Assembly: GCA_003214215.1 (NCBI GenBank)
Contig: QCLX01000002.1
Location: 1-64,000 of the forward strand
Direction of reading: 5' to 3'
Origin: Prochlorococcus sp. AG-418-G18
Lineage (GTDB): Bacteria > Cyanobacteriota > Cyanobacteriia > PCC-6307 > Cyanobiaceae
DNA: 64,000 nt
Below are positions 38,995 through 56,827 of this stretch, one piece after another. The notes under the pieces were generated by a model, which was not told the DNA's origin, searched no databases, and worked only from the letters and a program-made list of their open reading frames with translations. The position numbers and the translations under genes are program-made. Position 1 is the stretch's first letter, and every line of letters starts with the position of its first letter.

Positions 38995-38997
38995 GTA

Positions 38998-39936
38998 TCA
39001 ATTTTTTATTACTTCCCCTGAAAAAGCTTTTGCAAGGTTGGTTGCTGCTTTTAAATTCTCTTCTTTAGGTGGAGAATACCTTTCTTTTATCTTGTATGTA
39101 AGAGTATTTTCTTTTCGGTCATATTTCCAACTTCCTTTTGTATGGCCTTTGGCATCTGAAAAATCTGGATAATTTTTAAAAATAAAATCTATTAGGTTAT
39201 TCCTTCTGTCTTCATATCCTGGATGGGTACATTTTTTTCCTGTTTCATAACCATAACCATTTTTCTTTGAAATAAAATCATGTGCCTTTATAGGTATAGA
39301 TGTTGAATATCCAGCATTTATTAACATTTTTGCTGAGCAGATATCAGCCTCCTTTTCGCACTCTCTAGAAACTTCAAAACCATATTCAATTGTCTTTTTC
39401 TTTTTCAGATTTTTACCTTCTTTGCTTACCTTCAATGAGCTATTAAAACTATCTTCATTAAGTACATGGCTAATTTCATGTCCTATCACAAAGGCCAGAT
39501 AATCTTCAAAATTTTCATTTGACTTAAAACTCGACCTGCTGATCTGAATATATCCATTTGGATATGCACAAGCCTCTACATTATCTAAAAGATATGCTTG
39601 TCTTATTGCTTCATTAATTTCATGAGATAGCTTACCTTTATATTTAATAAAAGGATTAACATGCTTTAAATGAAGGCATGATTCATTTTTTGTGGATAAA
39701 CCAAGAGATTTAGCAATCCAAGTACCTCTTGAACCTGCAGTAATTGAAAAAGTAAAAGGATAATTACCAAGATCATTTTTCTTAGAAATTTTATTAACAA
39801 TTCTTTTTACAGTTTTATATTCATTTGGCATAAATAATTGAGAATTATTTCTAAATTTTTTTCCAAGAAAAATTATCAGAGCCATAAGACTTATCAAAGA
39901 AATAAAGATATAAGAAATATCTAAAAAATCCTGCAT
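38998..39936 (-). CDS. M48-family membrane metallopeptidase
   Basis: Protein of 312 residues. An N-terminal helix (about residues 7-25) anchors it. The zinc motif is HEISH at residues 153-157, with the third ligand probably E196 in ECEKEADICSAKML, the arrangement of M48 (Ste24/HtpX/Oma1-like) peptidases. The mature domain would lie on the lumenal or periplasmic side, or in the cytosol, depending on topology that cannot be decided here. It converges on the DUF3326 gene (3-nt gap) and is divergent from the sigma-like gene at 40060, so it borders the accessory block. Confidence 0.85.
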   Translation of the reverse strand: MQDFLDISYIFISLISLMALIIFLGKKFRNNSQLFMPNEYKTVKRIVNKISKKNDLGNYPFTFSITAGSRGTWIAKSLGLSTKNESCLHLKHVNPFIKYKGKLSHEINEAIRQAYLLDNVEACAYPNGYIQISRSSFKSNENFEDYLAFVIGHEISHVLNEDSFNSSLKVSKEGKNLKKKKTIEYGFEVSRECEKEADICSAKMLINAGYSTSIPIKAHDFISKKNGYGYETGKKCTHPGYEDRRNNLIDFIFKNYPDFSDAKGHTKGSWKYDRKENTLTYKIKERYSPPKEENLKAATNLAKAFSGEVIKN

Positions 39937-40040
39937 TGGTATAAAAATAATTTTCGAGAAAAATATAGTTTTAAATAATTGCGAATGATTCCAAAATTTT
40001 TTTAAACTTAAAATTTAGATTTAAAATTTAATTGCTTAGG

Positions 40041-40046
40041 TATAAT
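40041..40046 (+). promoter_or_regulatory. -10 element before the 40.1-kb operon
   Basis: A perfect TATAAT at 40041-40046, preceded by TAGG, lies in the 123-nt divergent spacer. Transcription would start near 40053, giving a very short leader before GTG 40060 or about 19 nt before TTG 40072. No good -35 is seen. Confidence 0.45.
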
Positions 40047-40059
40047 TTTTAATTAATAA

Positions 40060-41388
40060 GTGACTATAAGCTTGAGTACTGAATTTGAAAATTTGTGTTT
40101 AATAGATTCTTTTAAAAAGAGAGTCAAAACTAAAAATATAGGAATTTGTACTGAATTTATTAATAAATCAAATATTTTGAATGAAAAAAATTCAAATAAA
40201 TTTTCAACAAGAATTATTTACTACACTAAAAATGAAGATTCATTAGAAGCATTACTTTGCATGAGGTGCAGAGTGAGTCACCCAATAAAAAATGCTATTG
40301 GTAGCCTTTATAAAAAACATAGAGCTATTTATGAAATTGATTACCTAGATATGATTAGCTATGTATTAGATGATTATGGTGAAACCTACTTAAGAAATTC
40401 CAATAAAAAGAAAGAAAAAAGTAAAGACAAAGTGTTTAGGTGGAGCAATGTTATTAAAATTGATAAAAATAAATTACGACCATTTGGTGTAAGAGTATTA
40501 TTAGACTTCAATCCTGAGTTATCAAATATAGATACGTGGACCTTTCACAAAGTTAAATCTAATGCTGAACTTAAAGCTTATTTAGAAAGTTTTGGATTGA
40601 ATCTAAAAGGAACATGGTCGTTGATAGCTGATCAAAGTTCTTCGAGAGTTAAAGAGGCATGGGGACTTTATGGAGATAGTTCTATGAGTATTAATGAAAT
40701 AGATATTCTTCATAGGTCGTATGTTGAAAATTATAAAAAAGCTAAAGAAGAATATAAAAAAAGAAAAAAAAGAATAATGGGATGGCATCCTGACTTTAAA
40801 TTTCTTCAGTCTTTAACTCCCAAACAGGAAAACACTGAAAATCTCGAAAAGATAGCCCAAGCCATTCACAAATTATTATCTGTATCTAAAGGTGCTCCTC
40901 AAAATTTTAGACAACTTGAAGGGTTAAGAAATGATGAACTATTTAAAGTGTCAGTTAAAAATTCAGAAGCAGAAAATAATTCAGAACAGAAATTAATTAA
41001 TTTAATTCAAAAAATAGTAAGAAAATCTGCATTAGAAATACTAAGAGATGTTTTGAAATCTGAAAAAATAAAATGGAAAGAAAATGATGATAAAAGATTA
41101 GCTTGGGAATTATATTCTGATGGTTTAAGCCAAAGAGAAATAGCTAAAAGATGTAATCACAAACAAGGATGGGTAAGTAAGCTTATAAAAGAAAAATTAA
41201 TTTTAGAAAGAATATCCTTGCTTGCTGCAATAGAATTAAAAGAGTACGTTGAATTTGAAAGTTTAAAGAAGGATCCAGATAAAATTGACAATTTAATTAT
41301 GCAATTACAAGATTATTTGATTTCAAAGCAGTCTGATTCAGATATATCAATCTTAAAAAGTATTCTTAAAGAGGTTTTAAGGAAATGA
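40060..41388 (+). CDS. HTH protein, sigma-like, of the DUF1822/CHAT neighbourhood type
   Basis: Protein of 442 residues with no recognised enzymatic domain. Residues about 344-382 form a helix-turn-helix, WELYSDGLSQREIAKRCNHKQGWVSKLI, of the type seen at the end of sigma-70 family and related regulators. A lysine-rich segment (KKAKEEYKKRKKRIMGWHP) lies near 225-250. The N-terminal half may be a degenerate sigma region, but motif evidence is weak. The start is GTG 40060 or TTG 40072; the latter fits the -10 position better. It is the first of three genes joined by ATGA overlaps and is inferred to regulate or be part of this unit. Confidence 0.65.
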   Translation: MTISLSTEFENLCLIDSFKKRVKTKNIGICTEFINKSNILNEKNSNKFSTRIIYYTKNEDSLEALLCMRCRVSHPIKNAIGSLYKKHRAIYEIDYLDMISYVLDDYGETYLRNSNKKKEKSKDKVFRWSNVIKIDKNKLRPFGVRVLLDFNPELSNIDTWTFHKVKSNAELKAYLESFGLNLKGTWSLIADQSSSRVKEAWGLYGDSSMSINEIDILHRSYVENYKKAKEEYKKRKKRIMGWHPDFKFLQSLTPKQENTENLEKIAQAIHKLLSVSKGAPQNFRQLEGLRNDELFKVSVKNSEAENNSEQKLINLIQKIVRKSALEILRDVLKSEKIKWKENDDKRLAWELYSDGLSQREIAKRCNHKQGWVSKLIKEKLILERISLLAAIELKEYVEFESLKKDPDKIDNLIMQLQDYLISKQSDSDISILKSILKEVLRK

Positions 41389-42596
41389 TAGAAGAAAATA
41401 AAATCAATAAGAATAAAACAATTGATGCATTACCTATCCCAGAGGATGCTGTAATTTTAAAATCCAAGAACATTCTTGATGCAAGTCAATTGGCTTTATT
41501 GGGAATAAAGGAAATAATTAAGCAAAGAGGAATTAATTTAAAAGTCAAAAAGAGAAGAGATTTAACAGAATTAGATTGTATTTTTGAAATAAATAATTTT
41601 TCTATTCAGGTTGTTTTTGCAGGTTTTAGTTCTGATCAGATAATAATTCCTTTAAAAAGATGGTACAAAATTAATAATGCACCGCAAATTATATTAGCTG
41701 CAAATATTGATGAAGAAAGTAATATTGTTTGCTTTAAGGGCATAATGACTTCAAAAGAATTTATCAATATATATTTAAAGAAAAATGCTAAAGGTCAATC
41801 TTTCGAAATTCCTTTAAGTGAATTTAAAGGAGGTATAAATAGACTCTTAAGCTTTGTTCAAATTCTTGAATCTGAGGCCTTATCTAGTAAGGGTATAAGT
41901 AGAAATATTGATTTCTTAGAATCTTTATTAAAGAAATTAGGATTATCAAGAAAAAATATATCTATAGTTATAGCAGCAGCTGGAGTAATTATATTTGGAC
42001 CTTCTATCTTTAGACCAAGACTTCTAGGAAATATTGCATCTGTTCCTTTTAGTAAGACTCAGATTACAAAAGATACAAGGGGTATCGGTAAAGACAAATC
42101 ACAAAATTTATGTTTATTTACCCCTACTTTTTTATTTGATAAATCAACATCTGCTCAAATTGCTAAAACTTCTATTAATAAACCCTTGATTTTCTCCCCA
42201 GATCCATTAAATCAGATATCAATAATAAAAGATGGTAATTTATTATGGTCTAGGAATGCAAGTTTTAATAAAAAAATAAATGAACCAATACCTTGGCCAA
42301 TTAAACCTATAAAACCTAATGAAGAATATGTTTTAAGTTTTAGACCCGCAGGAGCAGTAGTTGGGGAGTCAGCAAATATTATTTTGAGAGCAGAACCAAA
42401 AACTTCTTTTAAGAAACTTGAAAAAATTATTGAAAATTTAGGGGATAATTCGGGAGATTGGAGTAAAGAAATAAATATACTAATTAAACAAGATACTAAT
42501 GCAGCTCTAGCTCTATTATTTTCTGATAAGGCACCTCAATCAAAGATCATAAATAAAGCGAGAAGATTAATTCTAGAAAGAGAGGGTTGTTTATGA
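41385..42596 (+). CDS. Single-pass membrane protein resembling DUF1822/DUF928 proteins
   Basis: Protein of 403 residues overlapping the upstream gene by 4 nt. The N-terminal 175 residues (ASQLALLGIKEIIKQRGINLKV, ELDCIFEINNFSIQVVF, SDQIIIPLKRW) resemble the cyanobacterial DUF1822 arrangement. A helix follows near residues 190-208 (ISIVIAAAGVIIFGPSIF). The C-terminal part (LIFSPDP, LWSRNASF, PIPWPIKPIKPNEEYVLSF) looks like the beta-sandwich of DUF928-type proteins. These two families often neighbour CHAT genes in cyanobacteria. The family links are by eye and tentative. Confidence 0.55.
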   Translation: MIEENKINKNKTIDALPIPEDAVILKSKNILDASQLALLGIKEIIKQRGINLKVKKRRDLTELDCIFEINNFSIQVVFAGFSSDQIIIPLKRWYKINNAPQIILAANIDEESNIVCFKGIMTSKEFINIYLKKNAKGQSFEIPLSEFKGGINRLLSFVQILESEALSSKGISRNIDFLESLLKKLGLSRKNISIVIAAAGVIIFGPSIFRPRLLGNIASVPFSKTQITKDTRGIGKDKSQNLCLFTPTFLFDKSTSAQIAKTSINKPLIFSPDPLNQISIIKDGNLLWSRNASFNKKINEPIPWPIKPIKPNEEYVLSFRPAGAVVGESANIILRAEPKTSFKKLEKIIENLGDNSGDWSKEINILIKQDTNAALALLFSDKAPQSKIINKARRLILEREGCL

Positions 42597-43273
42597 TTAT
42601 TCTATTCACAGAATATGATGTAGATGAAACTGGGATGTCTATCCCCAGAGGAGGAATAAAAAAAGATGCCTATGAAGTTAGGGCTCTAACTGAAGCTTGG
42701 AATTATACACCTCTAAATCCTTACTTAAATAATAGGCAAAAAAATATTTGCGAAGTTTCTTATAATCTCCCATCATCAGCTTTCATTTACTCTTTTATTT
42801 TTTTTTCTTGGGTTTCATTAGAATTTCTCAATCCTGTTATTCTCGCAATATATGTTTCTCTTTTTTTTGGTTGGCTACTTACAGTAGTTAATCAGAAGAT
42901 ATTAGAATATTTAATTCCTTTGAATTATTTTATTTTTGCTAATCCATTCTTAGTTCCTTTTATAACTGCAATCACATTGTTTTCTGGTCGAATGAGCTGG
43001 AAAAGTGCAATTTTTTTAGTCCCTTTATCCTTCACTTGTTTGTTTGCTCCAGGTAGATTTATTTGTGACAACTTTTCACGTAATCATTTTCCTGAACTTA
43101 ATCCTAGATATGCTTTTGCAAAAATAAAATTTGGGATTAAATTCCCTTTTGAAAGATATTTACCAAAAAATAAAATATTTAATGAAGATAATATTGCAGG
43201 CAGAATTGGTTATGAATTATTCTCATGGATATTTCTTTTTGTCCTTATATTTTTAACAGCTATTTTTTGGTAA
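42593..43273 (+). CDS. Polytopic membrane protein, function unknown
   Basis: With ATG 42593 the protein has 226 residues and overlaps the previous stop by 4 nt (ATGA); a TTG two codons upstream is less likely. Residues about 1-60 are soluble (DVDETGMSIPRGGIKKDAYEVRALTEAW), followed by four to five hydrophobic helices, the last at the C-terminus (ELFSWIFLFVLIFLTAIFW). No known family. Third gene of the operon starting at 40060 and convergent with the TPR-CHAT gene, 30 nt away. Confidence 0.7.
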   Translation: MIILFTEYDVDETGMSIPRGGIKKDAYEVRALTEAWNYTPLNPYLNNRQKNICEVSYNLPSSAFIYSFIFFSWVSLEFLNPVILAIYVSLFFGWLLTVVNQKILEYLIPLNYFIFANPFLVPFITAITLFSGRMSWKSAIFLVPLSFTCLFAPGRFICDNFSRNHFPELNPRYAFAKIKFGIKFPFERYLPKNKIFNEDNIAGRIGYELFSWIFLFVLIFLTAIFW

Positions 43274-43303
43274 ATATATCTTAAGTTAACAATTTTACTT
43301 AAT

Positions 43304-46300
43304 TTATATTTTAATAGCTTTCCAATCCCCAGTAAGGATAAATGCGCCCCAATAGAATGGTTTTGACCAGTCACTTTTGATTGAATTAGGACTTTTTATT
43401 ACACCTAATCTAAAATCTCTTTGTGTTTTCATGAGAGCTTCTTCTTTGCTTTTGCCAAGTTTAAGATTTTTATAAAAGCCCTCCATAAATGCTGCCGTTG
43501 CAATATCTTCTACTTTCCACAAAGTTAAAATACTTGATTTTGCTCCTGCAATATTGATTGATCTTTTTAGACCATATACTCCTTCTCCTTCAATTATGTC
43601 TCCCTTGCCAGACTCGCAAGCTGAGATAACTACTAGTTCAGTATCTTTCCAGTTAAGGAGCGATATTTCCATTGCAGTTAAGTAACCATCATCATTTGAA
43701 AAAGAAGTTTGATTGTTAGCACCAGCTAAAACAACACCACTTCTTAATAAAGGATTCTCATTTTGAAATCTTATTGGAAGTAAATTTAAATCATTTTGTA
43801 ATCTAAAGAGATTGGGTGTCTGATAAGAATTATTTTTTGGAGTTGGGATATAAAATGCATGACTTGCAATATGAATTAATTTTGGAGATATATGTTTTTG
43901 TAATTTTGTTGTTGTAGCTTCGCTAAGTGTAAATAACTTAGCATTTGTAATTTGTGAAATTATTTCGCCTTCTGCCTGAGAACCTGGTAAAGATTTCCAT
44001 AATTTATCTTTTAAATTTACAGATATTTTTTGCTCTATAGGATGAGTTATAAAGTCGCTGATTAATTCATTATTTTTATTATCAAAGTCTGGATTAGCTA
44101 TAACAATAGATGAATTTAAGGAATTTTCTGAAGTTTCAGATAATTTAATTAAATCTCTCCCAGTAGTTAAGTTTCTTATTTTTATTTCTTCAACAAGTAA
44201 TTTTTTGCTTGAAGGTAAACTTAATACATTAAATGGAAGACTATTTAATTCTCCATCTAATGAAATAAACCATACATCCTTTTCTCCTATAGCTTCATAT
44301 AAAGGTTTTATTACTAAATCACTAATTTCTTTAAATACTTTTGAATCCAATGTAGACCCCTGTTTAATTTCAAATATGGTTTCTCTAACCTTTTTTTCTA
44401 AAATATTAGAAGAACCTAAATCAATAGATATTATTTCTTTGTTTGGTTTTAATATTAAAGCTAAATATTTAGACTGAGTTTTAATAGGTTCATCTTTACT
44501 TTTAAAAATAATTTGATTATATTTTTGAAATTCTATTAAAACAGAATTCTCAGGCAATACTTCACTTATTTGTTCTATTTCAACAACATCATTTTTAATA
44601 GATGGAAGTTTTTTCTCAAGAATTGATTTTCGTTTAGTAAGACGATCTCTTAATTCTTGGGATAATTCATAAGATGATAATTGACTAACTATTTTTGATA
44701 TTTCTTTGAAATTAGAATCTTGAGAAATAGATTCTCTTGCTATTTGTGACTGTTTTTTTTCTATATCTTGAAGTAAACCTTGATGATTTAGTCTAGAAAA
44801 TAATGCCATGCGGGCACCAGATTTACTATTCAATGCCCATTGAAAAGGGGACATGAAAGAACTTCTCATGGATTCTAGAAATTGTTCTCTACTATTTAAG
44901 GCAAGGTACTGAGTTTCTTTTTGTATTAAACTAAATATTCCTTTTAAACCTTCATAAGCATAGGGTTCAATTTTATTTTCTTGATCTATTAAAGAATATA
45001 TAAAAGCTAAGTTGATACTTATTTGATTAGTTTCAGCATCATTATTACCGAGAATCTTTTTTCTTATATTAAATGCCTCTAAAAGATATGGTTCGGCTTC
45101 TAAAAAAAGATTTTGACCAATATAATTAACAGCCATATTATTTAAGATATTTGATATCAGTAATTTATTTTCTGCCAAATAATTTTTACTTAGTTCTAAT
45201 GCCTCTTGGTCAAATAATTGAGCTTTTTTATATCTTCCTTGTATTCTATTGATATGACCTAGGTTACTTATAATTGTAATGTAAAAGCTATTTTTTTTGC
45301 CAACTGATTTTTCTGTAATTTTTTTTGATCTAATTAATTGTGATTTAGCTTCTTCTAATTTGCCTTGTTTTAATAGGACTACATATAGATTGTTTAAAAC
45401 TGAGGAAACTAAAATCTCATTATTTTCACTATCAGTCTTATAGCTTAATAAAGCCTCTTTATAAATTTCCTCTGCTTCTTCATATTTTCCCTGTTTTGAA
45501 TATAACATTCCTAGACGATTTCTCATCTTTACTAAATCCCTACTTTCAGGTTTCAACAAGCCTTTTTTTGTATTGAAAGAAATCAAATATAAATCTTCTG
45601 CTTTTCTGTAAAGATCAATTTCGAAATATAAATCTGCTAATAAACTTTCAAATTCGGCAGTTGTTATATCATTATCTCCATTTTTATTTTTTATGATTTC
45701 TAGATTTGAAACAAGTATATTTTCTGCTTCCTTATAATCACCTTTTAATGTATAAAACTTAGCTAAGTTACTTTTTACCATTAATGTCTCTAAATGCTTT
45801 TCACCAATTGTATTTTTTAAAATATTAATAGAATCCAAAAAAAAGTTCTTTGATAGATTATATTTTCCTTTAATTAGAAAAATATAGCCTAAATTATTTT
45901 TAGATAATGCTAATTTAGGATCATTTTTGTTGAAGTATTTATTTGCAAAAATCAATGCTTTTTTTGCTTTTAATTCAGCTTTTTCATAATCTCCAAGTCG
46001 AGAATAAAGTTCATAGAGGTTGTTAGTTGTATTAAAAATCTCTTCATCATCATCATTTAATATTTTTTCTTTTATATTTAATGCTTTAAGAAGATTATTT
46101 TCTGCATCATTATATTTTCCTTGATAAATGTTGGTATATCCAAGATTATCAAAAGTAATTGCAACCTCTATATCATTAATACCAAAAAGATTTTTTTTTA
46201 TTTTTAATGAATCTTTAAATAATTTTTCTGCAGAATTATAATCGCCAAGAAAAATATGGTTTTCTGCAATCTCTTGAAATATTGATGCTGAAATATCCTC

Positions 46301-46597: not shown

Positions 46598-46705
46598 TTG
46601 AGACCTTTATTTACGTAAATTTTATAAATTCAAAATATTAAAGTAATTTTTAATTAAACATTAACATCAATATATTAGATCTTGATTTTCTTGATAATTA
46701 TTTTT

Positions 46706-47608: not shown

Positions 47609-47762
47609 AATGAATATTATTTTTAATTAGATAATTTCTTATAGTTTTATTTCTTTTAGTTGATTCCAATTTATTTATAGAGCTTTGAAAATAATGAGAA
47701 ATAAATTTTTGGAATCATTTTTATTATTTGGAACTATTAATTTTCTAGAAAATAATTTTGTT

Positions 47763-48785: not shown

Positions 48786-48791
48786 AGACAA

Positions 48792-49955
48792 ATGGAATCC
48801 ACCAAACTTTTCGAATATATAAGTGCAACAAAAATAAGATTACGCAAGTTATCTCCTTTTTTTGCAGCATTATCTCTATATGCAGAAATTGATTTTTCTG
48901 ATGAAGTACAACTTGCAGCAACAAATGGTAAAAAGATAATCTTCAATCCGACAACTTATATTCAATTGCCTCCATCTGAAAGAGATGGCGTCTTCCTACA
49001 TGAACTATTGCATATGGCTCTTCTTCATCATTTAAGAAGAGGAGTTAGGGATCATTATATTTTTAATATTGCAGCGGATATTGTAGTAAATGGGATGATT
49101 GTAAATGAGGGTAATTTTAAAATCCCAAAATACGGAATAAGAGATGAGGATTTAGAGCATTTAAGTGTTGAGGAAGTTTATGAATTAATAATTAAAAATA
49201 AGAAAAAATATAATTTGAATTTAGTCGATTTAATTAATGATGAAAAAGATTCTGAAGATAAAGATTCTAAAGGGAAAGGTGATGATCTTAAAACTGGAAT
49301 TAGTGATTTAAATACTGAAGCTGAAATCAGAAATTATTGGAAACAAGCAATTAATGATGCGAAATTAATTACTAAAGGTTCTTCAGGACATTCTTTGCCA
49401 GAATCATTTGAAAGGAATTTTGGAGAGGTCTTAGAGCCTGAGATTGATTGGAAGACAAAGCTTTGGAATTTCTTAGTAAGAACCCCTATAGATTTTGGTG
49501 AATTTGATAGAAGACTTATATATTCAGGCTTATATTTAGAAAACCTTGAAGGTGAAAGTATTAATGTTTTTTGTTGCATAGATACAAGTGGATCTATATC
49601 AGAATATGAAATAAATAAATTTATGAGAGAGATAAAAGGAATTATTAATGCTTATCCTAATTTAAATTGCAGATTATGGTATGCCGATCATGAATGCTAT
49701 GGTCCATATAATATTGACTCTATAGAAAATGTTCCAAAGCCCAAGGGTGGAGGAGGAACAGATTTTGAACCATTCTTTAAGGACATCACTAAAAAAGAAT
49801 TTAATAATAATGAAGGTGTTTGCATTTATTTAACTGATGGATATGGTTATTTCCCTGAGAAGGAACCAGATTTACCAGTCCTTTGGGTTGTTATTCCAGG
49901 AGGAGCTGAACAGGAATATTTTCCTTTTGGTGAGATAGTAAAACTTACTAATTAG
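48792..49955 (+). CDS. DUF2201-type protein: HExxH metallopeptidase-like domain plus VWA-like domain
   Basis: Protein of 387 residues with two parts. The N-terminal domain has HELLHMALLHH at residues 70-80, a zinc peptidase-like motif. A charged linker (about 140-185) leads to a C-terminal VWA-like domain with MIDAS motif DTSGS at 264-268 and a later GGGGTDF. This is the arrangement of DUF2201 proteins, which pair with MoxR ATPases. The MIDAS metal would bind a partner protein while the ATPase remodels it. Peptidase activity in this family has not, to my knowledge, been shown. Gap to the ATPase gene is 6 nt. Confidence 0.88.
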   Translation: MESTKLFEYISATKIRLRKLSPFFAALSLYAEIDFSDEVQLAATNGKKIIFNPTTYIQLPPSERDGVFLHELLHMALLHHLRRGVRDHYIFNIAADIVVNGMIVNEGNFKIPKYGIRDEDLEHLSVEEVYELIIKNKKKYNLNLVDLINDEKDSEDKDSKGKGDDLKTGISDLNTEAEIRNYWKQAINDAKLITKGSSGHSLPESFERNFGEVLEPEIDWKTKLWNFLVRTPIDFGEFDRRLIYSGLYLENLEGESINVFCCIDTSGSISEYEINKFMREIKGIINAYPNLNCRLWYADHECYGPYNIDSIENVPKPKGGGGTDFEPFFKDITKKEFNNNEGVCIYLTDGYGYFPEKEPDLPVLWVVIPGGAEQEYFPFGEIVKLTN

Positions 49956-50015
49956 TAAAAAAAGGAATCATAAATATTTTCTCAAACTATATAAAAATAG
50001 AAATAATTTTCAAAA

Positions 50016-51011
50016 TTGGATATTAAGAGGATCGTAATTGAAAATCAAGTTGATAGGAAAAAGCAAATTGATTTTAAAAAACATATAGATGGATGTAGTA
50101 AGTTAGATTATCTTTTCACTAAATTTCTAGAATATAGAACATCTTACAGTAGATATCCAACAATAAATAAATGGAGAGAATTTGTTGTAACTTCCCTTTT
50201 AGAAAGTCTATCAGAAAATAAAAAATTGAAATTTGATATGGTTGGTATTAATAGTAATAAAAAACTTAAAGAAAACATTTACATATATCAAAAAAATAAA
50301 ATAGTTTTATATGATTTTTATTTTTCTTGTGCTTTAGATTTCTATGAAGGAAATGATATTACAATAAATTCTTTGAGTATGGAAATATGTTATGAGATGA
50401 TTTTTGAAAAAAGTTATTATGGCTTTGATATATTTTATTTACCTAGTCAAATAGAAAGAAATATTTTTAAGGTACTTTCTAGAGTTAATTATTCTAATGG
50501 ATTCGAAAATAGTATTGGACAAAATTCTATTTTGAATGAATTAGAGACTCAACTCTGCAGGACGTTAGTTAATTTTGAAAATATCGAATACAGCAATCTT
50601 TTTTCTTTGGATAAGGTATTAATTCAATTAAGTTATAAAATTTCTCCAGAAAATATTTTACATAACATAAATTATTTTAAAAAAATTATTTTTAAAGAAC
50701 AAATGCTTTTAGCTCAAAGGTTGAGCTCTAAAAATATTATTGCTAAGAAATATAATGAAATTTCAAAAATGCTTCTTAGTATATTGAATTCTAAGGAAAA
50801 GGAACTTATTAATCTTAGATATGGATTAGATAATGAGAGAAGATATACTTTATTTGATATATATCATATGAAGCAATATAAAAACTATAAATTGCTTTTA
50901 GAGGATTTAATAAGGGCATTATGGAAAATAAAGATCTGTTGGCCAAATGGAATAATATATAAATTACTTTTTTGTAGTGATGAACAATATCAAGAGGAAT
51001 CACTTTTTTAA
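50016..51011 (+). CDS. Unknown protein with a sigma-70 region 4-like C-terminus
   Basis: Protein of 331 residues starting at TTG 50016 (MDIKRIVIEN). Most of it is all-helical without recognised domains and rich in Asn, Ile, Lys and Tyr. Near residues 247-275 it reads LLSILNSKEKELINLRYGLDNERRYTLFDI, which matches the first helices of sigma region 4 (E-x3-LRYGLD-x-TL-x-I), but the DNA-reading helix is degenerate (MKQYKNYKLLLEDLIRALWKI). No region 2 is visible. Same strand as the MoxR-VWA pair and 60 nt after it, so it may belong to that unit. Confidence 0.6.
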   Translation: MDIKRIVIENQVDRKKQIDFKKHIDGCSKLDYLFTKFLEYRTSYSRYPTINKWREFVVTSLLESLSENKKLKFDMVGINSNKKLKENIYIYQKNKIVLYDFYFSCALDFYEGNDITINSLSMEICYEMIFEKSYYGFDIFYLPSQIERNIFKVLSRVNYSNGFENSIGQNSILNELETQLCRTLVNFENIEYSNLFSLDKVLIQLSYKISPENILHNINYFKKIIFKEQMLLAQRLSSKNIIAKKYNEISKMLLSILNSKEKELINLRYGLDNERRYTLFDIYHMKQYKNYKLLLEDLIRALWKIKICWPNGIIYKLLFCSDEQYQEESLF

Positions 51012-51047
51012 ATGGGAACTAAATAAATATTGAAAATTATTTTTATT

Positions 51048-51503
51048 ATGAGAATCCCAACTAAAAACTTATCAAATGGATTTATTTCTGAAATTTTAAA
51101 TTTATTTGGAGTTAAATCAAATGATATAAATAATCAAATTTCATTAGTAGAAGAAAGTTTTCTTTACAATATTTTTTATAATCAAGAATCTAAATCAATA
51201 GAATTTAGTTCATTTATATCTGTTAAAGAATTACTAGAAACTCAAAAAGATAACTTGAATTTTATCATAAAAAATCATGATCCAAGAATCAATATCTCTT
51301 TTGAGAATAGTAAGGAAAAGGAAGAAGAAATAGATATATACATCTTCTTTGATTACTCTCTTTCAAAAAAGGATTTTTTAGAAGATATTGAGATTCTAAA
51401 TCTTCATAATTTATTTAATTCACTTTTATACAAAGTAAATCATATTTGTAGGGAAATTAATATCAGGAAAAGAATTAATGAACTTAAATCATTAGATATT
51501 TAG
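51048..51503 (+). CDS. Hypothetical protein, about 151 residues
   Basis: ORF on the same strand, 36 nt after the sigma-like gene. Start chosen at ATG 51048 (MRIPTKNLSNGF); TTG 51030 would add six hydrophobic residues. It has a central acidic KEKEEEIDIYIFFDYSLSKKDFLED region and a helical C-terminus INIRKRINELKSLDI. No family recognised and strong AT bias. It is likely real because the frame is long and the strand consistent, but with no functional hint beyond its place between two sigma-like genes. Confidence 0.55.
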   Translation: MRIPTKNLSNGFISEILNLFGVKSNDINNQISLVEESFLYNIFYNQESKSIEFSSFISVKELLETQKDNLNFIIKNHDPRINISFENSKEKEEEIDIYIFFDYSLSKKDFLEDIEILNLHNLFNSLLYKVNHICREINIRKRINELKSLDI

Positions 51504-51553
51504 AATCGTCGATATATTTAATTAATTTAAAATTCAAAAATGTAATTTAAAAA

Positions 51554-52078
51554 ATGACTGAATCCAACGCTTCAAAGAAAAATCATTCAAATAAAGATGA
51601 TTTACCTTACATAAAATATTTGAATGAAGGTAATAAAAAATTCTACGAAAATGACTTCGAAGGAGCTATAAAATCCTTGAATACTGCTTTTAGACTAGGT
51701 TGCAATGATAGATATGCTTTTTGGAAAAGAGGCCTAGCTAAGAGTAAATTAGGAGATCACAAAGGTGCTCATAATGATATGGTTCAATTCGGTTTTCATC
51801 TGGAAAGTGATTATATGATTAAATTATTAAATGAAAAAATCAAAGAGAAATCTTACTTTACAGATGATTTTATTGATTTAATCTCATCATCTCTTGATGT
51901 CCAGGAACTTAAAGTAATTACAAATCGTTTTGGACTTGTAGATGGTGTATTTAGAACCCAAAGAGAAGTTGGTCAATTTTTAGGAATTACTCCTCAAAGG
52001 GTTTCTCAAATAGAATTAAAAGCAACAAAAAAAATTCAAATTGCCAAGTCTCTCGAAAATCTATTTGAAAGAAAATAA
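51554..52078 (+). CDS. TPR fused to sigma-70 region 4
   Basis: Protein of 174 residues. Residues 18-90 hold about two TPR units (YLNEGNKKFYENDFEGAIKSLNTAFRLG, AFWKRGLAKSKLGDHKGAHNDM). Residues 112-172 match sigma-70 region 4.2: VITNRFGL, then RTQREVGQFLGITPQRVSQIELKATKKI, the helix-turn-helix that reads -35 elements. Regions 1-3 are missing, so it cannot itself act as a full sigma factor; it might be an activator or a decoy binding the beta flap or -35 DNA under TPR control. Its 3' end overlaps the convergent TPR gene by 18 nt. Confidence 0.82.
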   Translation: MTESNASKKNHSNKDDLPYIKYLNEGNKKFYENDFEGAIKSLNTAFRLGCNDRYAFWKRGLAKSKLGDHKGAHNDMVQFGFHLESDYMIKLLNEKIKEKSYFTDDFIDLISSSLDVQELKVITNRFGLVDGVFRTQREVGQFLGITPQRVSQIELKATKKIQIAKSLENLFERK

Positions 52079-52465
52079 TTCGAGTAATTTTAATTGTGTT
52101 TCTAAAATGTCTTTTGCTTTACCATTTAATTTTTGAAAAAATTCATAATCAATGCAATAAAGAGTTTCCTTTATAGCGTTGTCAAAATCTTTACTAGCTT
52201 TTTCTAAATTATTAACCTTTGCAAAAGCATAACCCCTATAGAAAAGAGATTCACCTAATTCTTTAGAAGTATTAAACTTTACATTTCTTTTCCATTTAGT
52301 AACCTTATTTAATAAATTTATACTTTGAGTAAAATCATAGATTGATTCTTTGTAAAATCCTTTTTTTAGATAAAATACTCCTCTAAATTTAAAACAAATA
52401 ATTTTTTTGTAAGTTGATTTATTATTTTCAATAATTTCAGTAAGGTATTGAATATCACTAATCAT
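52061..52465 (-). CDS. Small TPR protein, 134 residues
   Basis: Protein with about three TPR-like helix pairs: FRGVFYLKKGFYKESIYDFTQSINLL, FYRGYAFAKVNNLEKASKDFDNAIKE. No catalytic motif, no membrane helix. It is the last of four minus-strand genes in order 54456 to 52061 with small gaps (16, 28, 15 nt), so a single transcript is likely. Its 3' end overlaps the TPR-sigma gene on the other strand by 18 nt. Confidence 0.75.
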   Translation of the reverse strand: MISDIQYLTEIIENNKSTYKKIICFKFRGVFYLKKGFYKESIYDFTQSINLLNKVTKWKRNVKFNTSKELGESLFYRGYAFAKVNNLEKASKDFDNAIKETLYCIDYEFFQKLNGKAKDILETQLKLLELFSFK

Positions 52466-52481
52466 TTATTTTTTCAATTAT

Positions 52482-52778
52482 CTAATTTTTGAATTTATCT
52501 ATATATTGCTTTTCTATTTTTTCTAAAATGTATGATTTCGCAAAACATGTATTACTTTTATTGAGAGCTTCTTTATAGTCTTTTATAGCAAGATGGTGAT
52601 TCCCTAAAATTGAATATATATTTCCTCTATGAAAAAAAGCATTACTTAATTTTTTACTAGTAATTATGGCTTTAGTATATTCTTGAATAGCTCCTTCAAA
52701 ATCCTCTAAGATTTTCTTTGCCCTTCCTAATCTGATAAACCTCCAATAATCTAATGGGACATTTTCTTCTTTAAACAT
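52482..52778 (-). CDS. Small TPR protein, 98 residues
   Basis: Two TPR units, RLGRAKKILEDFEGAIQEYTKAI and NAFFHRGNIYSILGNHHLAIKDYKEALNKS, make up nearly the whole protein. The start MFKEENVPLDYWRFIRLG resembles the start of the 300-residue TPR protein at 46706-47608, suggesting a shared ancestor or shared docking peptide. No other domain. Minus-strand operon with the two neighbouring TPR genes. Confidence 0.75.
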   Translation of the reverse strand: MFKEENVPLDYWRFIRLGRAKKILEDFEGAIQEYTKAIITSKKLSNAFFHRGNIYSILGNHHLAIKDYKEALNKSNTCFAKSYILEKIEKQYIDKFKN

Positions 52779-52806
52779 AATCTAATTTTTTAATTCTTTT
52801 ATTTAT

Positions 52807-53358
52807 TTAGTTCTTATTTTTTCTAGCGATTCCTAAACTGAAATCTATCAATTTTATTGATTGATTCAAATTTTGATTATTCTTTATTGGTAAAAGATTA
52901 AACAAATCTTCTTCAAAATCCATTAATTCTTTAGCATAGGATCTGAATGTGGAATAACTATAAATAGCTTTTTCAGTTTCATCCTGTAAAACAGCCCAAG
53001 AAAAAAAAATAAAATAAGGATATTCTTTCTCGCAATCAGATTTGGTCAAAAAAGTATAATCCTCACAAGATTTTTCAAAATCACCTGAAAGTGCAAATGC
53101 CAAGCTTCTAAATAGACATGTTTTATAAAGGTTATTTTTTTGTAAAAAGTAAGTCTTATCACCTGTATATGAATATATCCTTGTATCTATTTGACCATTT
53201 CTCTTAATAACTGTATTAAAATCATTAATTGCTTTTTGATAATTTTTATTTTGTAGATAAATAAATCCCCTTTGCATTAATAAAATTAAGCTATATTTAT
53301 CAGCTTTTATCTCAATAGTTAACTCTTTTATAAGAGATAAATATACAGATCTTTTCAT
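52807..53358 (-). CDS. TPR protein, 183 residues
   Basis: Contains TPR-like units, for example LLMQRGFIYLQNKNYQKAINDFNTVIKRNGQ, and a second CLFRSLAFALSGDFEKSCEDYTFL. The C-terminal 60 residues are helical and not repeat-like (FNLLPIKNNQNLNQSIKLI). No signal peptide. It follows the 360-residue orphan gene by 15 nt on the same strand and precedes the 98-residue TPR protein. Confidence 0.75.
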   Translation of the reverse strand: MKRSVYLSLIKELTIEIKADKYSLILLMQRGFIYLQNKNYQKAINDFNTVIKRNGQIDTRIYSYTGDKTYFLQKNNLYKTCLFRSLAFALSGDFEKSCEDYTFLTKSDCEKEYPYFIFFSWAVLQDETEKAIYSYSTFRSYAKELMDFEEDLFNLLPIKNNQNLNQSIKLIDFSLGIARKNKN

Positions 53359-53373
53359 AGTATTAATAATTAA

Positions 53374-54456
53374 TTAACTACTAGATTTTGATTTACTCTT
53401 TAAAAAATTTAATGCGGTATTAATAATATGCTCAATTCTTTTTAGATCAATACCCGCTAAATAAGTATCTTCATCAAAAAGAATCTTTACTGGTTTAGCT
53501 TTTCTACCATATAGATCATATTGATTTTCAGCATTTTCTTTTAGTTTTAAATTTTCTTTTTTTTGTTTTATTATCCATTCCTCAAAATTATTTTTACTTT
53601 TTTCTAAGTAATTTTTAATAGCATTTATAGTTATTTGATCATCTGAATCATTAAGAGTATTTATTTTTCTAAAAATTTCTTCAAGTAAATCCAAACTGGT
53701 AATACTTTTGAAACCATAATCATTAGTTTTTTCACCCCATTGATCTTTTTTAGTTTCTACATCTTTTATATAATTAATTAATTCCCAATTAATTTTTGCT
53801 TTTTGTTTAGGATATAAATCTTTTACTTTGAAGTATTCAATTATTTTTACGTCTATATAAGTCTTATCTTTATTTGACGGATGATCAGGTTCATATGTAT
53901 TAGATGGATCATAAAAATAAATCTCTCTATTCCCAACCTCAGCAAAATCAGTATCTATAAAAATATTTCCAAATCTAATTATCCCAGTACTAATATCGTA
54001 ATTAACAGTAAATGGTTTGGGAAACAAAGCTACTTTGTTGTAGTCTCCTAAAATAACTTCTTTAGCAGAAATACATCCAATAGATCCATGATCTACATTG
54101 TATTCATTTCCTTGGTTATCTATATAAATCCCATCACCCCAACAAGTTTTCAAGTTAGCAAATAATGATCCTTGCATTGCTCTAAAAACCCCGTTTATAT
54201 CAAACCAATATCCTTCATAAAACTCCTCAAGTCTCTCATCATGCATATCAATATTAGTTAAGTCTTTTTCGAACTCAGATAATTCTCCAATTACATATAA
54301 ACCAGGTTCAAATAATTTATTTGAGATGTCTTCAGTTAATGTATATCTAGTTGCTGGGCTACCTCCTAATGAATTAACTAAGTTTCGATAGCCCTTTATT
54401 TTATCTAAATATTCCTTAGGAGGTAATATACTATTTCTATTTTTAGAGTTAGACAT
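53374..54456 (-). CDS. Orphan protein, 360 residues, function unknown
   Basis: First gene of the four-gene minus-strand unit. Residues 1-200 appear globular and beta-rich (LFEPGLYVIGELSEFEKDL, YWFDINGVFRAMQGSLFANL, GSIGCISAKEVILGDYNKV, GIIRFGNIFIDTDFAEVGN), unlike the helical TPR neighbours. The rest is helical and charged, ending in a lysine/serine tail (KSKSKSSS). No transmembrane helix. I recognise no family. The beta-rich half with many aromatic residues could be a ligand- or protein-binding domain, and its TPR partners could form a complex with it; this is speculation from context. Confidence 0.75.
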   Translation of the reverse strand: MSNSKNRNSILPPKEYLDKIKGYRNLVNSLGGSPATRYTLTEDISNKLFEPGLYVIGELSEFEKDLTNIDMHDERLEEFYEGYWFDINGVFRAMQGSLFANLKTCWGDGIYIDNQGNEYNVDHGSIGCISAKEVILGDYNKVALFPKPFTVNYDISTGIIRFGNIFIDTDFAEVGNREIYFYDPSNTYEPDHPSNKDKTYIDVKIIEYFKVKDLYPKQKAKINWELINYIKDVETKKDQWGEKTNDYGFKSITSLDLLEEIFRKINTLNDSDDQITINAIKNYLEKSKNNFEEWIIKQKKENLKLKENAENQYDLYGRKAKPVKILFDEDTYLAGIDLKRIEHIINTALNFLKSKSKSSS

Positions 54457-54515
54457 AAAAAAATATAGACTATTTTTTTAATAGTTCTAAATCTACTTTG
54501 ATGATTCCATTAGTA

Positions 54516-55457
54516 TTAAACTTTTATCTTAAGATAAATACTAATAATATTTTTTATACCTTCTGGAATTTTGTTTAATGAATTTGGATATTTTTTTAAA
54601 CAATTTTCATCAATTGATAATGCATATTCAAAGTCATTTATAGCTTCTTCAATATTTCCATTTTTTATTCTACAAAAACCTCTAATAATATAAGCATCAA
54701 GTAGACGTTTTTCTTTAGGATATAGATTTTTAATAGCTTCGCTAAACATACTTATAGACAAGTTGTAGTTGCTTAGGTTTCTATAAATTATTCCTGCTAA
54801 AAAATAAGATTCAGGGAACTTTTCAATTAATAATGAATTATTAATATCATCTATAGCTTTCTCATAACTTCTTTTCCTTATGTAAATTAGGGCTCTTTCA
54901 CGTAATAAAAAACAAAAATCAAAATTTTCAAACCAATCATATTCTTTCTTTTTATTAATTTCAAATTTATATTTAAATAAAGAAATTGCTTTTGAACAGA
55001 AAACTAAATCCCACCTTATATTTCCTAATATTCGATAAAGAATTGCCCTCATCCAATAAATTTCTATTAAATAACTTGTAGGATTTTTAATTAAAATGTG
55101 ACCCCAAGATTTTTTAATTAAGGATTCAAATATTTTTAAAAAGTTATTTAAATCCTTAATTTTCTTTTTATTCAATTTCTTTAATCTTAAATCCTCTACT
55201 AATTCCCTTATCTGACCATGAGAAAAATTATATTCTTTCTTAAATGCGATTTTGACATAATAAATTGCATTTTCTAAATCCTTTAAAAAATAATATGTTG
55301 AGGCCAAATATATACTTGTTAAGCAATTATTATTTTTATTTCTTGTGTTTTTATTTAAAGCATTTTTAAAAGATTTTAAGGCCGATTTATAATTTGATAA
55401 TTCGAATTCCTTTTTCCCTTTGTAGAAATATGTTCTCCAAGTTACTTTTTTATTCAT
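54516..55457 (-). CDS. TPR protein, 313 residues (paralog A)
   Basis: TPR protein starting with RTYFYKGKKEFELSNYKSALKSFKNAL, with further repeats (ALIYIRKRSYEKAIDDINNSLLIEKFP, AGIIYRNLSNYNLSISMFSEAI, RGFCRIKNGNIEEAINDFEYALSIDEN) and the C-terminal IPEGIKNIISIYLKIKV. It is clearly paralogous over its full length to the next gene upstream (55621-56556), sharing for example KDLNNFLKI, SHILIKN-like and IEEAINDFE segments, yet the proteins are well diverged. A conserved non-coding element lies 46 nt upstream of the start. Confidence 0.82.
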   Translation of the reverse strand: MNKKVTWRTYFYKGKKEFELSNYKSALKSFKNALNKNTRNKNNNCLTSIYLASTYYFLKDLENAIYYVKIAFKKEYNFSHGQIRELVEDLRLKKLNKKKIKDLNNFLKIFESLIKKSWGHILIKNPTSYLIEIYWMRAILYRILGNIRWDLVFCSKAISLFKYKFEINKKKEYDWFENFDFCFLLRERALIYIRKRSYEKAIDDINNSLLIEKFPESYFLAGIIYRNLSNYNLSISMFSEAIKNLYPKEKRLLDAYIIRGFCRIKNGNIEEAINDFEYALSIDENCLKKYPNSLNKIPEGIKNIISIYLKIKV

Positions 55458-55503
55458 TAAATAATATTTACCTCTTAAAACTTAAATAGTTCTAATAAAT
55501 CAG

Positions 55504-55619
55504 AAATGATTCCTGTTCACGCTATTTCTTATGTAGGAAAAGTATTTGTGAAGTAAAGATAATAAGGACGTCCGCCTTTAGAACTCCTTTTTTTTAGTTA
55601 ATTTGTTTATGCAAAATAA
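55504..55619. repeat. Conserved non-coding element R1, upstream of paralog A
   Basis: 116-nt element about 90% identical (by eye) to R2 at 56600-56718. It contains TTCCT/AGGAA arms, the segment GTAAAGATAATAAGGACG, a TAAAG/CTTTA stem and an 8-T run on the plus strand at 55588-55595. It fills nearly all the spacer between the two paralogous TPR genes. It may be a small RNA on the plus strand ending at the T-run, or a leader for the minus-strand gene. A one-base indel relative to R2 makes a shared coding frame impossible. Confidence 0.75.
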
Positions 55620-55620
55620 T

Positions 55621-56556
55621 TCAAATTTTTATTTGAGAATTCATTAGGATAATATTTCTTACACCTTTAGGAATCTTTTTAGTAATTTCTCTATTCTTTG
55701 TCATGCAAAATTTATCTACAGAATATGCTAATTCAAAATCATTTATTGCATCTTCAATATTTTCATTTTTAATTCTTAAATAACCTCTGTTCAAATAACA
55801 AGAAACCAACTCTTCTTTATATGGTACAAAATGATAACGTAACTCTATTGCTTTACTAAACATACTTATGGCTAAACTATTGTTTTTAAAGTTCCTATAG
55901 ATTTTGCCTGCTCGCATATAAGCTCTATAGTTACATCTCTCCATTTTTAATGCATTATTTACATCATTAATTGCCTCACTAGCGCAATTTTTTTTAATAT
56001 AAGTAGTCGCTCTACAAGTTAATACAAAGCTATAGAAGTATTTCTCCCTTTTAGTCAGCTTTGAGAAATCAATATTGGAGGGGATTATTTTACGAAAATA
56101 AAATAATGACCATCTTAATTGTCCTAGCCTTCTTAAAATAAAAGCACGCATATAATAGATTTCTTTAAGAGTTTCTCCCGAATTTTTTATTAAAATATGC
56201 GATTTATTTTTGTTAATTATATTTTCTAGGATTTTTAAAAATTTATTTAAATCTTTTAGTGTTTTTAAATCATCACTCATACTCAAATTATTTATTAATT
56301 CCCATAATGGAGATAAAGAGAATTTATCTCTAGGCTCAGTTAAGTATATAGAAAAATAAATTGATTCAGTTATATCTCTTAAATAGTAATGCGAAATTAC
56401 ACGATAAATTAGAATTAGAGTTCTGCTATTTTTAGTTCTCGCACATCTTCTTGTTTTTTGAAAGTAAACTGTAGCAGGTTTATATTTTTCTTTTCTTAGT
56501 TCTTCTTTTCCTAATTCAAAATATGTTTTCCAAGTTGGCTTATAAATCTTTTTCAT
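55621..56556 (-). CDS. TPR protein, 311 residues (paralog B)
   Basis: Paralog of the protein encoded at 54516-55457: TWKTYFELGKEELRKEKYKPATVYFQKT, TLKDLNKFLKILENIINKNKSHILIKN, AGKIYRNFKNNSLAISMFSKAIEL, RGYLRIKNENIEDAINDFELAYSVD and the same C-terminal IPKGVRNIILMNSQIKI. TPRs fill the C-terminal half; the middle is a helical non-repeat part shared by both paralogs. Element R2 lies 43 nt upstream of its start, as R1 does for paralog A, so the duplicated unit was element plus gene. Confidence 0.82.
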   Translation of the reverse strand: MKKIYKPTWKTYFELGKEELRKEKYKPATVYFQKTRRCARTKNSRTLILIYRVISHYYLRDITESIYFSIYLTEPRDKFSLSPLWELINNLSMSDDLKTLKDLNKFLKILENIINKNKSHILIKNSGETLKEIYYMRAFILRRLGQLRWSLFYFRKIIPSNIDFSKLTKREKYFYSFVLTCRATTYIKKNCASEAINDVNNALKMERCNYRAYMRAGKIYRNFKNNSLAISMFSKAIELRYHFVPYKEELVSCYLNRGYLRIKNENIEDAINDFELAYSVDKFCMTKNREITKKIPKGVRNIILMNSQIKI

Positions 56557-56599
56557 AAAAATAATAATCTTTGAGAAATTATTAGTTTTTAATATTTAT

Positions 56600-56718
56600 A
56601 AATGATTCCTGTTTTACGCCATTTCTTATGTAGGAAAAGTATTCTTGAAGTAAAGATAATAAGGACGCCCCCCTTTAAAACTTCTTTTTTTTCTAACTAA
56701 TTTATTTTTGCAAAATAA
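56600..56718. repeat. Conserved non-coding element R2, upstream of paralog B
   Basis: 119-nt copy of R1. On the plus strand GAAGT-AAAG pairs with CTTT-(AAA)-ACTTC to give a bulged stem, directly followed by eight T residues near 56685-56692, the shape of an intrinsic terminator. TTCCT (56606-56610) can pair with AGGAA (56632-56636). The remaining spacer to nadE (56719-56827) shows no gene. Confidence 0.75.
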
Positions 56719-56827
56719 ATTGAGAGCAAAGCTTTCTAGTGTGCTCATGATTAGATTTTAGTTTTTCAGAAATATATATACTCCTTTCTTGTTTAATTTC
56801 AAAAAAATATTCAATTTAATCAATCAA

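Follow-up and report, generated by a model that had tools for sequence, protein, structure and literature searches.

Neighborhoods in which the gene for an extracytoplasmic function (ECF) σ factor lies with genes for a DUF1822 protein and for an EACC2-caspase whose C-terminal domain varies, for example CHASE2, have been described in eLife (PMC8195603, which we take to be Kaur et al. 2021), and in the parts of that paper drawn on here such systems appear as gene-neighborhood predictions. In the Csx29-Csx30-CASP-σ relay of type III-E CRISPR systems, a TPR-CHAT protease cleaves Csx30, an inhibitor bound to CASP-σ, and CASP-σ motifs lie within the locus, according to the sections used of a 2022 report in Science (PMC10028731, presumably Strecker et al.). 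Secreted CHAT proteins are also mentioned in a Synechococcus island in the excerpt consulted of PMC7522525. Here, we describe an island of ∼17.9 kilobases in a 64,000-nucleotide stretch of Prochlorococcus sp. AG-418-G18 (contig QCLX01000002.1, positions 1 to 64,000; hereafter the window). It encodes a divergent σ70-like protein (SigA), a membrane-spanning candidate anti-σ factor (TMb), and a TPR-CHAT protease, and its new feature is an ECF-like promoter motif ahead of most transcription units. The literature seen on DUF1822/CHAT, DUF928, CHAT-σ, cyanobacterial CHASE2, and Prochlorococcus islands held no such promoter or fusion, which is no proof of their absence elsewhere.

As in the EACC2-caspase/ECF σ/DUF1822 systems, so far as the parts used of PMC8195603 describe them, a predicted σ factor, a DUF1822-type protein, and a caspase-superfamily protease are neighbors in the island. 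Cyanobium-type loci match that description in outline, a likening made without comparing the EACC2 domain, and add a protein homologous to the CHAT-CHASE2 proteins of other cyanobacteria. The Prochlorococcus form differs: it has no CHAT-CHASE2-type protein, its DUF1822-like and DUF928-like halves are fused across one transmembrane (TM) segment, an apparently exported TPR-CHAT protein is kept, and a dedicated promoter motif also covers a MoxR-VWA gene pair; no dedicated promoter is described for the EACC2/DUF1822 systems in the same parts of PMC8195603. In the window, DUF1822 similarity was found for the N half of TMb only, and no CHASE2-type protein was found (17 main block proteins in Pfam, 20 window genes by BLASTP). 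The Prochlorococcus loci look like a reduced form of this ECF-σ/DUF1822/caspase group, which, on the parts of the paper used, is a closer family than the MoxR-vWA ternary conflict systems.

With the type III-E relay, as presented in the sections used of PMC10028731, the island shares a TPR-CHAT protease, a (candidate) ECF-type σ factor, a (candidate) inhibitor, and (putative) σ motifs inside the locus. It differs in that its protease appears to be exported and its candidate inhibitor spans the membrane, and neither Cas7-11 nor any other Cas family was found among the 17 main block proteins scanned with Pfam or the ten of them scanned with NCBIfam and PADLOC. In RseA/DegS-type control, an extracytoplasmic protease acts on a membrane anti-σ factor and, through it, on the σ factor. 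The order proposed below for the island, from extracytoplasmic protease to membrane anti-σ factor to σ factor, follows the same logic, which the parts used of PMC10028731 also mention, but the island protease has a caspase fold, and the comparison is one of logic.

The island and its promoter-like motif

The first-pass annotation, made from the sequence alone, had placed an accessory block at 38998-56718, between the core genes DUF3326 and nadE. The block is a real insertion in one Prochlorococcus genome: the gap between the two genes measures 17,839 bp in the window versus at most 222 bp in 118 other genomes. Among 151 congeneric genomes searched, DUF3326 was detected in 126 and nadE in 120; the 119 genomes with both genes have them always on one contig and convergent, and the window alone shows a long gap, the two genes being adjacent in every one of the 118 other informative genomes. 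In comparisons with six empty sites, homology breaks off at ∼38896 and restarts at ∼56827, which puts the island at 38897-56826 (no strand assigned), slightly wider than first drawn. Its G+C content is 23-31% (2-kb steps, 40001-56000) versus 28-39% elsewhere in the window. As the annotation had stated, recognizable mobility borders are missing: Pfam detected neither an integrase nor a transposase family in the 17 block proteins, and the window has no tRNA. A 26-mer of the empty site has no match in the window, and the junctions, inspected by eye, show no direct repeat and the loss of a few bp. Island sequence takes the place of the last codons of DUF3326 (38850-38994, the end of an island open reading frame, ORF). 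In another locus, L111, the same tail closes a 115-aa ORF (L111 3896-4243) with a weak match to phrog_34910; L111 was considered as the same insertion site and rejected, its DUF3326 match being the last 30 codons only, at the tail of that ORF. The source genome is 66% complete and comprises 40 contigs; judged by SigA, its nearest named relatives are Prochlorococcus.

The motif, which the annotation had not mentioned, was spotted by eye, as GGAATCA-N15/16-ACTA, in the upstream regions of M48, sigA, CHAT, and MoxR genes from five loci. We checked it by a scan of its own genome, permuted boxes, a spacing scan, control stretches, other loci, and a scan of 251 family genomes. Its longer form reads GGAATCA-N15/16-(AG)AACTA, with AGAACTA as the extended –10 box and a –35 box that is ECF-like (GGAAC type). 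The window contains nine exact matches (spacing 13-17), all in the island and none in the other 46 kb, versus 0.19 expected; the largest count in 100 shuffles was 3, and GGAATC alone is not enriched (38 vs. 31). The whole genome holds 12 matches at spacing 14-17, nine of them in the island, and a reversed control gave one.

Eight of the nine island sites are followed, after 9-34 nt, by an ORF start. The site for the M48 gene (39966-39992, – strand) is an exact motif (spacing 16) that precedes the ATG by about 30 nt. Both boxes of the site for the MoxR-VWA pair (47711-47736, +) are kept in five of five MoxR loci, and their spacers differ. The site at 50996-51021 (+) precedes the gene at 51030-51503 and probably serves 51554-52078 too; the L111 relative also has a site (L111 13257). 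The motif scan placed the remaining ones ahead of the TPR gene at 46706 (47642-47667, –), the gene at 50016 (49964-49989, +), and the genes at 53374-54456 (54482-54508, –), 54516-55457 (55487-55513, –), and 55621-56556 (56583-56609, –). The ninth exact site (spacing 17, 52576-52603) falls inside 52482-52778, ahead of which a variant beginning GGAATCG is found at 52808-52833. With operons allowed for, the motif would cover every unit except sigA-TMb-mem and CHAT. To judge from the sequence, it looks like an ECF-like promoter, and because it precedes most transcription units, the block resembles a single regulatory unit. The genes therefore appear to form one system, as the annotation had suggested, on the basis of a shared promoter motif rather than of co-occurrence alone.

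This association recurs in related loci. Across 22 sigA loci (394 kb), including the five in which the motif was first seen, we counted 60 sites at spacing 15 or 16, with a sharp spacing preference; 300 permuted box pairs gave a mean of 0.42 and a maximum of 5 in the same loci. No site of spacing 15/16 was present in 15 control stretches (236 kb), namely the window outside the island, six homologous empty sites, three sigA-less CHAT loci, and five MoxR-VWA stretches that are without sigA or lie beside a sigA-less MoxR-VWA pair. For 49 of the 60 sites, an open frame of 70 codons or more begins 5-60 nt downstream; random positions gave 1074 of 6600 (16%). Among Cyanobium-type loci, one of eight carries the motif (L128, three sites).

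SigA, TMb, and the TPR-CHAT protease

SigA (name used here; 40060-41388, +) had been annotated as having an HTH or σ-like end. Nothing in Pfam or NCBIfam exceeded the cut-off, the best sub-threshold matches being HTH_37 (E 0.0043, Pfam) and sigma70-ECF (E 3.9e-4, NCBIfam); what stands is the resemblance of its predicted model to σ factors. The AlphaFold (AF2) model has a mean predicted local distance difference test score (pLDDT) of 81.5 and a predicted template-modeling score (pTM) of 0.48. With this model, Foldseek returned σ factors or RNA polymerase models at ranks 1-5, with E values of 0.07 to 1.8 and thus all above 0.001, and all 50 rows listed by VIA were likewise σ factors or RNA polymerase models. 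The best VIA Z was 7.5, at a root-mean-square deviation of 17 Å for the whole chain, and residues 17-180 gave Z 6.7 and 3.7 Å over 105 residues. We find the σ likeness of SigA persuasive because every listed VIA row is of these two kinds. A SigA relative with 27% identity is also present on a viral contig (L140).

The next gene encodes TMb (name used here; 41385-42596, +), which by sequence comparison is a fusion of a DUF1822-like N half and a DUF928-like C half joined by one predicted TM segment (residues 191-209). TMb itself has no Pfam match, and its N half matches DUF1822 in hhalign (94%, E 1.3e-7 over 137 columns). In Cyanobium-type genomes, the two halves are separate genes on either side of the gene for a CHASE2-type protein; profile comparison matches the first to DUF1822 along its length (97.6%) and the second to DUF928 (86.5%, E 4.5e-6), and the DUF928-like proteins have signal-peptide-like starts (by eye). 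Two cysteines of the TMb C half, C243 and C402, are invariant. The DUF1822-like half is probably inside the cell and the DUF928-like half outside, and TMb may act as the anti-σ factor of SigA. The fusion predicts that DUF1822 and DUF928 proteins cooperate across the membrane in other cyanobacteria. The predicted fold of the N half (window 41463-41879) resembles PD-(D/E)XK nuclease-type folds (Z 8.1 to 6.4) and is possibly an inactive nuclease-like domain, at Z values too weak to build on. TMb is followed by mem (42587-43273, +), a predicted multi-TM protein matched, among the loci compared, only in L035 (45%).

The TPR-CHAT protease (43304-46597, –; Pfam CHAT 7e-58) has a hydrophobic, export-type segment at residues 9-27, and many aligned CHAT proteins start in the same way (Kyte-Doolittle scan or by eye), so that it appears to be exported. 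Its His-Cys dyad, H913/C994, is intact in 48 of 48 aligned rows (BLASTP E below 1e-40, duplicates included). CHAT is rare in the genus, with a match in 5 of 61 same-genus genomes, its own included and the one in G053 weak. CHAT-TPR genes also occur in two other Prochlorococcus genomes (L031, L032, and L033), where the 20 kb fetched contain neither sigA nor TMb and no spacing-15/16 motif.

SigA alignment A1 (13 rows, window included) was used to scan named genomes and gave 21 loci, from Prochlorococcus and Cyanobium-type genomes. Duplicate contigs (L034 = L120, L091 = L114, L094 = L113, and, to judge by identical ORFs, L098 and L126) were counted once in the 21 distinct picocyanobacterial loci referred to below. 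Alignment A3 was made without L127 and L131 (uncertain start, partial), and A4 without L121 and the unfused Cyanobium-type loci. The trio of SigA, TMb, and TPR-CHAT is complete in 19 of the 21, window included: TMb adjoins sigA in 20, and CHAT is within the fetched stretch in 20. The two misses, TMb in L121 and CHAT in L114, are on contigs of 7.5 and 7.8 kb that end nearby. M48 occurs in the fetched stretch of seven and MoxR-VWA of five. The SigA tree holds 21 distinct rows, window included, several being pairs over 90% identical; L124 and the Cyanobium-type loci, which do not reach 33% identity to the window, were left out of it. In this tree, the window groups with L111, L118, and L112 in a supported set. 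L035 attaches nearby on an open fork, and the five MoxR-VWA bearers are therefore tree neighbors whose single origin is not proven. The CHASE2-type protein of the Cyanobium-type loci matches CHASE2 below threshold (E 2e-4) and shares homology with a CHAT-CHASE2 protein from another cyanobacterium; it had no BLASTP match at E 1e-3 among 20 window genes, and Pfam showed no CHASE2 domain in any of the 17 block proteins.

A proposed relay and its alternatives

On balance, we favor the reading that the island is one self-contained transmembrane signaling module, running from CHAT via TMb and SigA to the island promoters. The TPR-CHAT protease, exported from the cytoplasm, would sense or process something outside. 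TMb would span the membrane and hold SigA until, cut or changing shape, it freed the σ factor; that CHAT acts on TMb is suggested by analogy. SigA, which we infer to read the motif, would then join core RNA polymerase at GGAATCA-N15/16-AGAACTA, found almost only in the island, and switch on the M48 protease, the MoxR and metallopeptidase-VWA pair, and the TPR proteins. The whole order is proposed because of the analogy with Csx29-Csx30-CASP-σ. With somewhat less than even confidence, we go further and view the island as a CRISPR-free, membrane-spanning relative, in logic, of that relay, in which an exported caspase-fold protease frees a mobile σ factor that is dedicated almost entirely to its own island and turns on a MoxR/metallopeptidase-VWA machine with TPR proteins in a streamlined, free-living cyanobacterium. 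Such a module would place a protease-σ relay in Prochlorococcus, with its streamlined genomes, and tie an accessory MoxR-metallopeptidase-VWA pair to it. With the dedicated motif, the output of such a system can be read: sequence alone suffices to list the likely regulon, effectors can be named, and the circuit can be tested with reporters.

Several observations weigh against this relay. The fold match of SigA is moderate, VIA itself cautioning that Z under ∼13 can arise by chance in helical models, and no σ factor turned up when PDB sequences were searched by profile with SigA. The C half of TMb has no direct profile match to DUF928 and is linked to it via the Cyanobium intermediates only. 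The first automatic motif test was not significant (six shared sites, a number reached in 4 of 60 shuffles), and the definition of the motif is post hoc, since it was seen by eye in that output and then tested with longer boxes. A relaxed scan of the intergenic regions beside sigA and CHAT in the window found no good site; because both genes are without the motif there, simple autoregulation is not indicated. Six of the 22 sigA loci (L092, L093, L113, L114, L119, L124) have no site of spacing 15/16, L114 being a 7.8-kb contig and G191, the source of L093, having three sites 9-13 kb from sigA. L095, L117, and L121 have one site each, and G131, G150, G137, and G323, two of them on short contigs, have none within 25 kb of sigA. 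Finally, the lone-CHAT locus of G041 (L031), with no sigA in the fetched stretch, has one spacing-17 site ∼2 kb from CHAT.

The genes behind the motif elsewhere bear on what the σ factor might control. In 17 loci listed with a slightly relaxed motif (six site-less sigA loci and seven of eight Cyanobium-type loci excluded), 64 motif-linked ORFs were grouped by BLASTP into TPR (11), TMb (6), MoxR (5), small signal-peptide-like (5), and M48 (3) proteins, seven pairs, and 20 singletons. The TMb group arises from a motif-like site inside the 3′ end of sigA, ∼50 nt before TMb (L096, L097, L120, L122, L123, L130), which could place TMb under feedback or simply reflect the conserved protein sequence at that point. 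The small proteins, which form one BLASTP group, lie at L096 14833-15087, L116 3939-4223, L120 2265-2519, L121 1698-1952, and L130 5233-5529. While the output in the window's group consists of M48, MoxR-VWA, and TPR proteins, other groups thus include small, apparently exported proteins. Together with a site ahead of such a protein in L128 and the apparent export of CHAT, this agrees with an envelope or cell-surface program, in which the σ module would control exported and surface functions and M48, MoxR, and TPR proteins would maintain the envelope. We consider such a program rather unlikely, as among the motif-linked window proteins tested for TM segments M48 alone has one, and the tested TPR, MoxR, and VWA proteins have none.

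The motif might instead be read by a housekeeping or other unrelated regulator, or mark cassette-type recombination, with the genes as merely co-located cargo. The six site-less sigA loci would fit this, as would the difference in gene content between L111 and the window. However, the control stretches with CHAT or MoxR-VWA and without sigA lack sites of spacing 15/16, and in the 251 family genomes, where a spacing 16-17 pattern gave 143 matches in 85 genomes, mostly scattered singles, the sole five clusters (at least two within 20 kb; G000, G129, G115, G191, G224) lie close to sigA or TMb matches, with a TMb match never more than 15 kb away. That pattern demands spacing 16-17 to ACTA and therefore misses spacing-15 sites. 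As to recombination, an open frame follows most sites at a distance of 25-34 nt, and the upstream regions of five MoxR and four M48 genes retain the boxes, apart from one M48 site that reads ACAA and another that begins AGAATCA, and diverge in the spacers. Because of this position and the unconserved spacers, we regard the motif as promoter-like rather than as a recombination site, and the cargo explanation as improbable.

The annotation had linked the block to ternary conflict systems, and its MoxR and VWA genes are adjacent as in the MoxR-vWA systems that PMC8195603, in the parts used, describes in cyanobacteria. The island VWA protein differs: it is of the DUF2201 type with a metallopeptidase-like domain, has no effector tail, and is motif-linked. 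The next gene (50016) is without an effector family in Pfam, NCBIfam, and PADLOC, no vWA-L model having been run by name; nothing named VMAP, iSTAND, or TERNS3 was found in these scans, whose libraries may lack the models. An anti-phage system of this kind, with TPR-CHAT replacing VMAP/iSTAND or acting as effector, is very improbable and was rejected: MoxR-VWA, CHAT, and TPR genes do occur together in five of the 21 distinct loci and weak PADLOC matches exist (MzaA 8.7e-4 for the TPR-σ protein, capP 0.001 for M48, generic TPR models 1e-6 for CHAT), but no MoxR-VWA was seen in the stretches fetched for 16 of the 21, the N terminus of CHAT is of the export type, none of the ten proteins scanned has a strong PADLOC match, and MoxR-VWA looks like regulon output because it carries the motif. 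The annotation had held that a widespread block and independent occurrence of CHAT and MoxR/VWA would refute a single mobile system; CHAT and MoxR/VWA do occur apart, but the block is absent at this site from all 118 other informative genomes.

Other genes of the island

The families named in the annotation are present: besides CHAT, we found MoxR, a DUF2201 VWA protein, and six or more free-standing TPR proteins. The M48 metallopeptidase (38998-39936, –; Pfam M48 2.5e-9) has an N-terminal TM segment, and its HExxH motif and downstream E are kept in seven of seven aligned orthologues. The MoxR-type AAA+ ATPase (47763-48785, +; AAA_5 4.8e-5, above cut-off; phrog_1297 6e-83), whose start was chosen by orthologue comparison, has intact Walker A and B motifs in seven of seven aligned sequences. 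The adjacent protein (48792-49955, +; DUF2201_N 2e-27, DUF2201 4e-17) combines a metallopeptidase-like domain (HELLH) with a VWA domain with MIDAS. Both HExxH and DxSxS are found in 10 of 10 aligned sequences, and the DUF2201 match spans residues 261-385 of 387, which leaves no C-terminal effector tail. MoxR-VWA also occurs apart from the trio: of 251 family genomes, five had VWA, and in three of these (G314, G121, and G267) the fetched stretches lack SigA and TMb. Cyanophages S-TIM5, 54, 61, and 66 carry a MoxR-DUF2201 pair in the same order, with matches 17-32 bp apart and ∼47% and 33-35% identity to the window pair (in S-TIM5, JQ245707.2 156989-159102, ∼47% and 34%); these are phage genomes, compared on MoxR-DUF2201 alone.

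The annotation had counted three proteins with HTH or σ region 4-like ends. Apart from SigA, this stands for the TPR protein at 51554-52078 (+; Sigma70_r4 1.7e-7), which has a 72% relative in L111, whereas the 331-aa protein at 50016-51011 (+), with two relatives in L112, has a weak match only (NCBIfam RpoD_Cterm, E 0.0018). Between them lies a gene for a 157-aa protein (51030-51503, +) with 43% identity to an L111 protein. TPR proteins were further identified with Pfam at 46706-47608 (–), at 52061-52465 and 52482-52778 (two small proteins, 52061-52778, –), and at 54516-55457 (–), and family scans placed a TPR protein (52807-53358) and a 360-aa protein (53374-54456) at 52807-54456 (–). The last TPR gene (55621-56556, –; Pfam) is apparently a tandem duplicate of 54516-55457. 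Within 54516-56692, these two genes share a 90% identical 80-nt upstream stretch (55516-55595 and 56613-56692).

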